From: Marinomonas sp. SBI8L
Lineage (GTDB): Bacteria; Pseudomonadota; Gammaproteobacteria; Pseudomonadales; Marinomonadaceae
NCBI RefSeq assembly: GCF_001624705.1
Contig: NZ_JSEO01000005.1
Location: 124,001 to 188,000 of the forward strand
Direction: 5' to 3'
DNA length: 64,000 nt
Position numbers and translations under genes: made by a program
Notes under the pieces: model-generated
Seen by the model: only the letters and a program-made list of their open reading frames with translations
Databases searched by the model: none
What the model was told of the DNA's origin: nothing
Shown: piece by piece, positions 23,964 to 27,336 of the stretch
Layout of the letters: every line of letters begins with the position of its first letter
Position numbering within the stretch: the stretch's first letter is position 1

Positions 23964-23991
23964 TTTTTGCTTCGCTCGAACTTTGAGTCAG

Positions 23992-24022
23992 ACTCGTTCT
24001 CATGCTTTGTATGAGAACGAGT
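23992..24022. terminator. Perfect 12-bp hairpin between the GntR gene and the reverse transcriptase
   Basis: Arms 23992-24003 and 24011-24022 are perfectly complementary around a 7-nt loop. It lies between the 3' ends of two convergent genes. There is no strong T run, so the terminator role is likely but not certain. It also marks the right edge of the sugar block and the start of AT-rich DNA. Confidence 0.65.
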
Positions 24023-24046
24023 AGAAAACTCATTTTAAATTTCTTA

Positions 24047-25327
24047 TTAAAACTTTTCAATTTCATCATTAAACCTTCGCCATAAAGGCTTTAATTGATG
24101 CTTAATCGTTTTGCTATTCATTTTTTTAGCAGCCCTGAGTCCATAAGTAATGAAGTTTCTACCACCAAAGTGCGTATATCGACTATAAAGCTTGCGTTTA
24201 TAAAGAGACTCTCTAGATAAGCCTTTATTATCCCTTATAGCATTATATTTTTTCATTGTTTTCTTAGCTAAACTAACGCCTCTTTTCATCTTTTCAGAAT
24301 ACCTAGCCAAAGATGATGATCGTATATAAATGTTTTCTCCATCAAAAATAAAGCCAAGATATTGCAACATTTGATCAGCTTTTAATTGCCTGTTTTCATA
24401 TTTAAACGTCCGCAATTCGGTTTTATCAGTGTTAATTGATAACCCTAGTTCTTTAACTTTTTCCTGTGCAATTCCTGCGACTTCATCCCTTAACTCAGTG
24501 GGTACTATAAATAACATGTCATCACAATAACGATAATATTCACCGCCACACTCATCTACATAGTTTTTCATTTTGATATCAAAATCGAACATATATATGT
24601 TCGAAAGCAAGGCACTTATTGGAGATCCTTGAGGGATACCAAACGGAGCTTTATGAGGTACAATTAAATTGCCTTTACGAACAATATCTCTAAACTCTTT
24701 TGCAGTACATACACGTTTTCTACCATTTTTAGGGTTATTAATTGAGATTTCGAATTTCTCATAAAGATCTAGTTTATTTACAGTTGAAAATTTTGTAATA
24801 GATTTATAGACGTTAAAGTGATCTGCAGGAAGTTTTGAAGAGTTTAATAGACTTGCCCAACTATCTTTCAAAAACTTGTGATTTAATGTGTCAAAAAACT
24901 TTGAAAAATCAAGTGCGACAGCACTGCACTCTCCAGATTTTTTTATTTTTTCAAAAGCATCGTAAGCAAAATCAATATTACTTTTACCGAGCCCTCTAAA
25001 AGCTAAAATTGAATTTTCTAAGCCTGAATTTCTAATTTTATCTTCATATTTTTTGCTAAGAATTTTTGTGTAATAAGCATAAATATGACTATCCATATGA
25101 GATGAATATGCAATAGGGCGTTCTTTAAACGATATATTTAATTCGTTAGTTATTTTGTCTTTATTAATTTTTTTTGATTTGACTGTATAATTAATAAAAG
25201 GGTAGAAGGCATGTCTAGCGACGATATCAGGATTTGTAACAACAGCTACAGCTTTCTTATAACCTACAGGAAGGTCAAAATGAAGATATCCCCTACTACG
25301 AAACCATTTGGGAGGAACTGAAGGCAT
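24047..25327 (-). CDS. drt2: DRT2-type antiviral reverse transcriptase
   Basis: This is a 426-aa single-domain reverse transcriptase. Motif A is AVALDFSKFFD (catalytic D140), motif B PFGIPQGSPISALL (QGSP 233-236), motif C YYRYCDDMLFI (YCDD 267-270), motif D LGLSINTDKTEL and motif E LQYLGF. Maturase, endonuclease and integrase parts are absent, as in defence RTs. Known DRT2 enzymes copy an upstream ncRNA into head-to-tail cDNA on phage infection, creating a toxic neo gene. The region upstream here has exactly that architecture: a 120-nt unit, ACA ends, a promoter formed at the junction and a stop-free frame. This makes DRT2 much more likely than other RT classes. The gene is strongly AT-rich compared with its flanks. 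Confidence 0.93.
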   Translation of the reverse strand: MPSVPPKWFRSRGYLHFDLPVGYKKAVAVVTNPDIVARHAFYPFINYTVKSKKINKDKITNELNISFKERPIAYSSHMDSHIYAYYTKILSKKYEDKIRNSGLENSILAFRGLGKSNIDFAYDAFEKIKKSGECSAVALDFSKFFDTLNHKFLKDSWASLLNSSKLPADHFNVYKSITKFSTVNKLDLYEKFEISINNPKNGRKRVCTAKEFRDIVRKGNLIVPHKAPFGIPQGSPISALLSNIYMFDFDIKMKNYVDECGGEYYRYCDDMLFIVPTELRDEVAGIAQEKVKELGLSINTDKTELRTFKYENRQLKADQMLQYLGFIFDGENIYIRSSSLARYSEKMKRGVSLAKKTMKKYNAIRDNKGLSRESLYKRKLYSRYTHFGGRNFITYGLRAAKKMNSKTIKHQLKPLWRRFNDEIEKF

Positions 25328-25389
25328 TTATTTTCCCTAGCAAAACCGAGGCAGACTTAGAACTGTGGCAATTCCCTACGCCTTACCCC

Positions 25390-25423
25390 GGCTTAACCAA
25401 GTTGTTAAGACAACCATCAAGCC
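25390..25423 (-). other. Stem-loop 3' of the DRT2 template
   Basis: Five outer pairs (25390-25394 with 25419-25423) and five inner pairs with a 4-nt loop form an interrupted hairpin. It lies 20 nt after the 3' end of the template and 62 nt before the RT start codon, a plausible RT recognition structure. Confidence 0.7.
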
Positions 25424-25445
25424 CGAAGACTCAGCCACGTCATGT

Positions 25446-25565
25446 TAGATATGAATTATACTGTAACTATAACTTTGGAGACATCTGTGACGACTCTATT
25501 CAATGTATTGCTGTCATTCTTCTCAGTTAGCTTGCTTGGCTTTCCGATTAGACTTGACAACCTGT
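25446..25565 (+). CDS. neo: neo: endless reading frame that exists only in concatenated cDNA
   Basis: This 120-bp unit (25446-25565) lies in one plus-strand frame (25442 + 3n) without a stop codon. Joining unit end ...CCTGT to unit start TAGAT... keeps the frame (AAC CTG TTA GAT), so the concatemer encodes an unlimited 40-residue repeat. Translation can start at GTG 25487, 6 nt after GGAG 25477-25480. Each repeat has a hydrophobic core, LFNVLLSFFSVSLLGF, then IRLDNLLDMNYT and a Thr-rich stretch. In the chromosome the frame ends soon after the unit (TAA 25577-25579) and lacks a promoter. Known Neo proteins cause growth arrest; the hydrophobic core suggests membrane insertion here, which is inference. 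Confidence 0.86.
25457..25559 (+). promoter_or_regulatory. Split neo promoter: -10 at unit start, -35 at unit end
   Basis: TATACT is at 25457-25462 and TTGACA at 25554-25559, in the wrong order for a promoter in the chromosome. Joining two 120-nt units places TTGACA 17 bp before TATACT (25560-25565 plus 25446-25456), an almost perfect sigma70 promoter. Transcription would start near 25469, about 18 nt before GTG 25487. Confidence 0.85.
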
Positions 25566-25696
25566 TAAGTTCCTTTTAATCAATTACTTAAAGCAACTAT
25601 TAAAAGCAAAAAAATGATATCACCTCAATTAACAAAACTCAAAACCTTCTTAAGACAAAACTTAATTGTTAGGATATCTCGATAAAATTTTATACA

Positions 25697-26149
25697 CTAT
25701 TTCTCCAGAGACTCTAATGATTTAGAAATCAACTCCTCAAGGTGATTCCACTCACTCTCACTGAATGGAAAACCAGATGTTATAGCCACCAACAGATCAA
25801 TAGTTTCAGTTACTACCAACTTATGATTAAGTGGTAAGTTCTCTGCAAGCAGGTTTAAGTTCTGCACTTCTTGATATAAGTCTATGTTTATAGACATTCC
25901 CTTAATGTTACTTACATCATACTGATATTGAGTGACTCCATCCTGTATGACTTTTTGAGGGTTATAGAATCGGTAGTTTTTCACTACCATTTTTATAGTT
26001 GAGAGTAGTTTATGGCTTCGCTTAATGGCCAGCCGCCTTTCTCTCACTTTTCTCAACACACTTGGAGAAACACCTAAAACTAAAGCAACTACAACAGCAA
26101 GAAAAGTTGACAGTGCATTCACAATACTAAGTTTGGTTTGAAGGTCCAT
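25697..26149 (-). CDS. Small single-pass membrane protein, unknown
   Basis: A 150-aa protein with one N-terminal membrane helix (LSIVNALSTFLAVVVALVLGVSP, about 7-29), then a basic segment (LRKVRERRLAIKRSHK) that would face the cytoplasm, and a soluble helical remainder. No family is recognised. It lies just upstream of the DRT2 ncRNA on the same strand and is equally AT-rich, so it may be an accessory defence gene or simple island cargo. Confidence 0.65.
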   Translation of the reverse strand: MDLQTKLSIVNALSTFLAVVVALVLGVSPSVLRKVRERRLAIKRSHKLLSTIKMVVKNYRFYNPQKVIQDGVTQYQYDVSNIKGMSINIDLYQEVQNLNLLAENLPLNHKLVVTETIDLLVAITSGFPFSESEWNHLEELISKSLESLEK

Positions 26150-26263
26150 TCTAATCCTTACTGAACTTTAATTAAATAAAATGCCGCAATTAGGTGCTGA
26201 GAAAAATAAGATGTAATCAGAGTTTCTGATACCTCTAGCGGGCTCTTTTATATAATTTTCATA

Positions 26264-26860
26264 TTAGATTGACTCAATTATTTGTTTTATTTTTTGTTGT
26301 TCCTGCTGGAGTATTTCTCTAGTGACCTTTGCTGCTGTGCATGATTCATCATTGACTTCAAAGAATAGAAAGACATTAACAAGTAAAGCTAAACATTGAG
26401 ATGGACTGAAATGCTCTTCAGGAGTTTTGTATTTTCCGAACTCTGTACTTTTATTGTGTACCCAGTGTCGCCTCACGGTGTTTAATGCTTTTAGTTGGTG
26501 GTAAAGATCATTTTCTGTCACGTTGGATTGACCTAGATAGTTTTCAGCAAGGTATTCAAACCTTGAGACTGGAGAGGATTGCTTCTCAGCCTTATTTTTT
26601 GATTCTTTCTCAAGAATATAATCGTAATAGAATGCTTCAAGAGCCATTGCAGTAAAAGTTTGGGAAATCAACCAGCGTCCGCTCCAGTTAGGGCAATCAA
26701 TATCAATTTGATCGGTTGGTATCTCATTTGGTGTATATTTTTGTACCAAATATTTAAAATCTTCGGCCCACTCATAAGCTTGCAGTACAACAATACGAAG
26801 AATTTTCCCAAGCCCTGTGGCCCTTACTTGAACTAGCTGTCCGTTTACTTCTTTAAGCAT
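26264..26860 (-). CDS. HEPN-like protein, possible ribonuclease
   Basis: A 198-aa, mostly helical protein. LNTVRRHWVHNKST contains R-x4-H (R130, H135), the catalytic signature of HEPN RNases. The preceding aromatic helices (ALEAFYYDYIL) and following NVFLFFEVND fit a four-helix HEPN bundle. HEPN proteins are common toxins or effectors in defence islands. No partner nucleotidyltransferase is nearby. The family assignment rests on the motif and predicted helicity only. Same strand as the membrane protein, 114 bp upstream of it. Confidence 0.5.
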   Translation of the reverse strand: MLKEVNGQLVQVRATGLGKILRIVVLQAYEWAEDFKYLVQKYTPNEIPTDQIDIDCPNWSGRWLISQTFTAMALEAFYYDYILEKESKNKAEKQSSPVSRFEYLAENYLGQSNVTENDLYHQLKALNTVRRHWVHNKSTEFGKYKTPEEHFSPSQCLALLVNVFLFFEVNDESCTAAKVTREILQQEQQKIKQIIESI

Positions 26861-27336
26861 AAAATACCTAATTTCCTGAGTGAGTGCTTATCACATAACA
26901 ATTTAGGCTCACTGCACAGCAAAGCCATGATGATAGGCCCCCTTTGAGTGGCCGCTTTATTTTACAAAGGAAGTTTGATCTTTCATGATATGACCTCCCT
27001 GTTTTATACGATATTTAATAGGCTCTTCTTGAACCTAAGGTTGGCAAATAATACTCCTTCTTTGAGTAAATTTCTTTCTCAAGACTTTCTCTTCTTCATT
27101 TCTTATTTCTAGCGACTCAACAACCCCAACCACCCGCTCTTACTCTTCCCTCTCAAGTGAAAAACTAGCAACTAAGCTTAACTTAGGTATTATGTGCGCC
27201 TCGTAAAACTGATGTCGCTTTTTTCATCAAAAATGTCGTATTAGTTTTAAAAAATGGCGGTTAATTCCCCTAATCTGGTTATGACTGAACGGGTTTCAGT
27301 CTTATATAACGATCGCTAGTTATTCTGAGGAAGAGC
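26861..27336. other. 476-bp intergenic region before the betaine-type ABC operon
   Basis: The first 350 bp, next to the HEPN gene, show no ORF or clear structure. The right part holds three 21-bp-spaced TGTCGC-like half-sites (27213-27260) and a 7-bp inverted repeat, GACTGAA/TTCAGTC (27283-27301), followed by TATATAAC, a possible -10. Confidence 0.7.
27213..27260 (+). promoter_or_regulatory. Triple TGTCGC-type operator (GlxA/AraC family) before the ABC operon
   Basis: TGTCGC at 27213, TGTCGT at 27234 and TGGCGG at 27255 are direct repeats exactly 21 bp apart, two helical turns. The first two spacers both have AA at the same place. The half-site resembles TGTCGC elements known for the Pseudomonas ArgR/GbdR group of AraC regulators. 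Two such regulators are in this window. Confidence 0.75.

Follow-up and report, generated by a model that had tools for sequence, protein, structure and literature searches.

Does a 120-nt segment of the Marinomonas sp. SBI8L genome become a gene only after reverse transcription has joined its copies head to tail? The segment lies in the window, the 64,000-nt stretch of DNA analysed here, and a sequence-only reading had proposed that it encodes neo, a gene whose promoter and open frame are assembled across the joints of a concatemer. We conclude that the window very probably carries a complete DRT2 (UG2) anti-phage system on its minus strand, in which a non-coding RNA (ncRNA) of about 260 nt is followed by the Drt2 reverse transcriptase (RT) and which would make neo concatemers. 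The parts of this DRT2-neo locus, their order, spacing and conservation, and the covariation of its RNA are established here. The DRT2-neo mechanism was already published in 2024, and the window is a canonical, well-preserved further example of it; a literature search found no paper on the window's DRT2 locus. What the window adds is a distinct Neo sequence from another lineage, and a neo unit that can be recognized to the base from raw sequence alone.

The neo unit and the proposed mechanism

The sequence-only reading had reported two copies of TGTTA, at 25443-25447 and 25563-25567, and a 120-nt unit at 25446-25565, and all of these hold to the base. When the unit is joined head to tail, the joint yields TTGACA (starting at 25554), a 17-bp spacer and TATACT (starting at 25457), followed by GGAG (starting at 25477), 6 nt and GTG (starting at 25487), all as that reading had claimed. 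Its further claim of a 40-codon frame that crosses the joint was confirmed in the window sequence: one plus-strand frame is stop-free throughout, the remaining two on that strand are interrupted by 5 and 3 stops, and all three minus-strand frames contain stops. The junction promoter matches the consensus at 11 of 12 bases with a 17-bp spacer, and the template has a length divisible by three with a matching ACA-1 and ACA-2, as is expected of a DRT2-neo system. The features of the unit are as follows.

25446-25565, minus strand: template unit, 120 nt; the complementary plus-strand sequence forms the neo unit (from the ACA-1/ACA-2 bounds, circular frame, junction promoter and relatives)
25443-25445, minus strand: ACA-2 (TGT on the plus strand), immediately outside the unit
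25563-25565, minus strand: ACA-1 (TGT on the plus strand), the final 3 bases inside the unit
25448-25452, plus strand: GATAT, putative complement of the primer-binding site, unit positions 3-7 (matching Klebsiella in letters and place)
25457-25462, plus strand: neo -10, TATACT, at unit position 12
25477-25480, plus strand: putative neo ribosome-binding site, GGAG
25487-25489, plus strand: neo start codon, GTG, within the open frame
25554-25559, plus strand: neo -35, TTGACA, the promoter being complete only across the joint

The closest point of comparison is KpnDRT2 of Klebsiella pneumoniae, for which we draw on parts of two papers (PMC11100668; PMC12039810). There, the 120-nt template occupies bases 29-148 of a 280-nt ncRNA, TATAAT and TTGACA lie 12 nt from either end of the unit, and the junction spacer is 17 bp. 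A pair of ACA motifs guides template jumping, and a ribosome-binding site and start codon follow the -10. Among 42 close homologues of that system, units are divisible by three and keep a stop-free frame (PMC11100668; PMC12039810). The sequence-only reading had named both the 120-nt repeat and the ACA-guided jumping, in agreement with these accounts. A GATAT primer pairs with template bases 142-146 in Klebsiella (PMC12039810).

According to these parts of the two papers, the window shares with KpnDRT2 a Drt2 RT of about 425 aa, an upstream ncRNA, a 120-nt unit, ACA-1 and ACA-2, a joint that sets TTGACA 17 bp from the -10, a ribosome-binding site and start codon, a stop-free frame and the GATAT primer site. 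It differs in having TATACT instead of the Klebsiella TATAAT as its -10 and GTG as its start codon. The Neo sequence also differs, in a comparison that stops short of matching the two units letter by letter.

By analogy with the published system, the locus would operate as follows. The Drt2 RT would bind the ncRNA and, upon phage infection, copy the 120-nt template. The terminal TGT of the cDNA would move from ACA-1 to ACA-2, where copying would restart to produce a 120-nt head-to-tail repeat, and second-strand synthesis would convert it into a double-stranded concatemer. Every joint would then complete a sigma-70 promoter, so that transcription and GTG-initiated translation could yield a repetitive, hydrophobic, stop-less Neo protein that may arrest growth.

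The reverse transcriptase and its RNA

We identified the RT from protein family models and solved structures. The gene is open and full length. The RT scores 593.1 bits against the NCBIfam Drt2 equivalog NF041746 (cut-off 390) and, over residues 7-424/425, aligns with three distinct solved sequences at E-values of 2e-154 or lower. Two of the solved groups matching it, 9c0i and 9lv7, carry Drt2 in their names, and an alignment to 9lje places a YCDD motif in both proteins. The cut-offs of other RT types were not reached, with 73.8 of 300 bits for a group II intron model and 55.6 of 235 and 31.1 of 450 bits for retron models.

A related mechanism has been described for DRT10 (UG17), in the part of PMC12632851 that we draw on. 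Like DRT2, it produces ncRNA-templated repetitive cDNA through re-annealing of the cDNA end; unlike DRT2, it makes 9-nt repeats in Eco3DRT10, is protein-primed and involves a SLATT protein (PMC12632851). The window's RT scores 691.6 bits against the PADLOC Drt2 model and 80.6 bits against RT_UG17.

24047-25327, minus strand: Drt2 reverse transcriptase, 426 aa, YCDD motif (NCBIfam, PADLOC, solved chains)
25336-25593, minus strand: DRT2 ncRNA, about 260 nt, approximate extent (from the RT-12 match and the covarying 5' hairpin, its probable 5' end taken from Klebsiella)
25336-25447, minus strand: 3' scaffold of the ncRNA, Rfam RF03016 (RT-12), 65.6 bits against a gathering score of 44.2, model positions 1-117 of 117
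25573-25593, minus strand: 5' handle hairpin of the ncRNA, a 7-pair helix (from an alignment of ten ncRNAs)
25599-25628, minus strand: candidate ncRNA promoter, TTGAGG-18-TTTAAT (read by eye)

The Rfam RT-12 model is matched over its full length and covers the 3' scaffold only, the template and 5' handle falling outside it. The match starts from the ACA-2 end of the unit, with ACA-2 itself among its first bases. Since RT-12 lies upstream of the RT on the minus strand, this strand encodes the ncRNA and the neo frame belongs to the cDNA strand, in agreement with the published arrangement. The DRT2 identity that had been proposed for the system is therefore supported by both of its neighbours, a Drt2 RT and an RT-12 RNA that starts at ACA-2.

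We aligned ten ncRNAs, comprising the window, the eight relatives that keep the neo layout and L002, a relative with an altered unit; the relative L014 was omitted because it has no template. RNAalifold places three helices in this alignment, one forming the 5' handle and the other two lying in the scaffold. Overall, 89.0% of cells pair and 21 of 31 pairs have changed on both sides; for the 5' handle alone, 84.1% of cells are paired and 6 of 7 pairs have changed on both sides. The covariation score is 0.625. Shuffles average 0.281, with none of 500 reaching the observed score, and sliding the partners gives no more than 0.204; the structure was derived from the alignment on which it is scored, which gives it an advantage over the slid versions, and the comparison with shuffles can be inflated by relatedness. 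The locus thus has the upstream ncRNA with a 5' handle and a structured 3' scaffold that is expected of a DRT2-neo system. As for the ncRNA's own promoter, a scan favoured TTGAGT-17-TATCAT at 25642-25614 over the candidate read by eye, but its 2 sites are no excess over shuffles (mean 1.0, sd 1.0).

Relatives that keep, alter or lose the layout

The sequence-only reading had named the loss of the frame or junction promoter in homologous loci as a refutation. We carried out this comparison in ten distinct loci besides the window whose RTs are 52-65% identical over the best tblastn segment (L014, L022, L017, L012, L023, L021, L002, L006, L005 and L007; L024 duplicates L006, and the two count as one locus). 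Of the plasmid matches 4 of 21 were included, of those from E. coli 2 of 3 and of those from phages 0 of 3; an RT search of genome contigs provided two relatives, and the same search of viral contigs found none.

Both frame and junction promoter are kept in 8 of the 10 loci, the exceptions being L002 and L014. The eight conforming units measure 111, 117 or 120 nt and have no stop in the frame that is open in the window. In each of them TATAAT is at unit position 12, the -35 differs from consensus at one base at most, and the spacer is 17 bp, which makes the window the sole conforming unit of nine whose -10 departs from TATAAT. ACA-1 reads ACA in all eight, and ACA-2 reads ACA in five, ATA in L017 and L023, and ACT in L007. 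L012 starts with GTG, the seven others with ATG. Eight of the ten relatives, L014 and L023 included, have an RT-12 match that attains the gathering score; L002 and L007 do not. Of the three frames, neo is the most hydrophobic in each of ten units, namely the window's, those of the eight conforming relatives and that of L002.

The two exceptions depart in different ways. In L002, from a Thiotrichales MAG, a 108-nt unit at 2733-2840 has ACA-1, ACA-2 and TTGACA, and a single stop in the neo frame directly before ATG; its Neo would therefore be of limited length, or the stop is a lesion. Because of this stop, L002 was excluded from the alignment of Neo proteins; it is included among the aligned ncRNAs. 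L014, from the same genus as the window, is the nearest relative by RT (65% identical). Its Drt2 RT has YCDD, and a 5' hairpin and RT-12 scaffold lie at 1309-1470, with 29 nt between landmarks, picked by eye, that are 134 nt apart in the window. A neo-like unit is absent from the 12,275 bases around the locus, and L014 is thus either a natural template-less DRT2 or a DRT2 with another product. Because L002 has an in-frame stop and L014 no template, the neo layout is not universal.

Below 45% RT identity, we found 11 further loci (L018, L019, L020, L010, L016, L015, L008, L009, L003, L011 and L013). They were not counted as support because a -10/-35 search without the ACA requirement gives several alternative units per locus; TGT stands at both ends of none of the candidates listed for them. 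Upstream of drt2 on a plasmid of Nitratidesulfovibrio vulgaris DP4 (L018) lies a 145-nt unit that has ACT/ACT as its bounds in place of ACA/ACA. As 145 nt is not divisible by three, the frame shifts at each joint, and its GTG start leads to 99 aa and then a stop. In L015, an RT-13 RNA rather than RT-12 lies upstream of a Drt2-like RT, together with a 129-nt candidate unit that has a perfect junction promoter, an open frame and no TGT ends.

Loci such as L014, L002 and L018 raise the idea, which we consider rather unlikely, that the DRT2 RT and RNA scaffold form a chassis that takes different templates. If these loci work, some DRT2s would yield short-repeat DNA or a fixed-length Neo rather than an endless one. 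Close relatives with a lost or altered layout are among the newer leads from this analysis, the template-less L014 being the odder one.

The evidence for the DRT2-neo reading of the window therefore comprises the Drt2 RT, the RT-12 RNA, a unit with promoter, ribosome-binding site, start and frame, the GATAT site, the relatives, the RNA covariation, the hydrophobicity of the frame and the Lamassu genes found in the same slot (below). Against it are the TATACT -10, the GTG start, the L002 stop, the lack of a template in L014 and the frequency of open frames in shuffles (below). Some of these points would also fit a DRT2 locus whose neo works poorly because of the imperfect -10, the GTG codon or a lesion that escaped notice, leaving it with concatemers but little Neo. 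All eight conforming relatives have TATAAT in place of the window's TATACT, defence in Klebsiella survived only in part with a GUG start according to the part of PMC11100668 that we draw on, and one relative, L014, has lost its template. However, the RT is open and full length, the promoter matches at 11 of 12 bases with its 17-bp spacer, L012 also starts with GTG, and the RNA helices are conserved. We consider a poorly working neo very improbable.

Chance expectation, distribution and genomic slot

We compared the unit with 20,000 dinucleotide shuffles of itself. An open circular frame alone appeared in 11.2% of them, a junction promoter alone (at most one mismatch, spacer 16-18) in 17, and the two jointly in 4. 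When the ends of the unit are kept fixed, each locus among the window and the eight relatives has an open frame in 10-54% of its shuffles, and therefore the open frame is persuasive only jointly; the product of these per-locus chances is 2.8e-6, a figure that ignores relatedness. The two strands of the window contain 747 TGT-to-TGT units of 90-150 nt whose length is a multiple of 3, and the unit at 25446-25565 is the only one that combines an open frame with a junction promoter of at most two mismatches. A looser scan, which required a 17-bp spacer but TGT at just one of the ends, gave four rows: this unit in two registers, and 46569 and 42281, on the minus strand in unrelated places. A chance arrangement next to an unrelated RT, such as that of a retron or group II intron, could draw on the frequency of open frames in shuffles, but it is next to inconceivable given the shared layout in 8 of 10 relatives and RT scores of 593.1 bits for Drt2 (cut-off 390), 73.8 for the group II intron model (300), and 55.6 and 31.1 for the retron models (235 and 450).

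At a threshold of E 1e-60, Drt2 matches are present in 2 of 49 genomes from the genus, 8 of 390 from the order, 3 of 369 from the class and 3 of 398 from the phylum, each count including the window's genome. The DRT2 locus is flanked by a GntR/UTRA regulator and an OpuAC-type ABC transporter. In a close relative (G775), these flanks are 96-97% identical and there is no match to the window interval 23968-27108; its slot (L029, 4397-8032) instead holds LmuA and LmuB of Lamassu. In the window, the slot 23968-27108 holds DRT2 and two open reading frames, neither of which matches any PADLOC, Pfam or NCBIfam model at E 0.001.

25697-26149, minus strand: open reading frame, 150 aa, upstream of the DRT2 RNA
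26264-26860, minus strand: open reading frame, 198 aa, upstream of the DRT2 RNA

The surroundings of L014 contain matches to DarT, DarG and DdmE. Together with the Lamassu pair in G775, they suggest that the locus is an exchange slot for defence genes, and a slot that holds DRT2 in one genome and Lamassu in a near relative is the other newer lead. In L006, a tRNA gene at 2886-2959 lies just downstream of drt2, a possible integration site.
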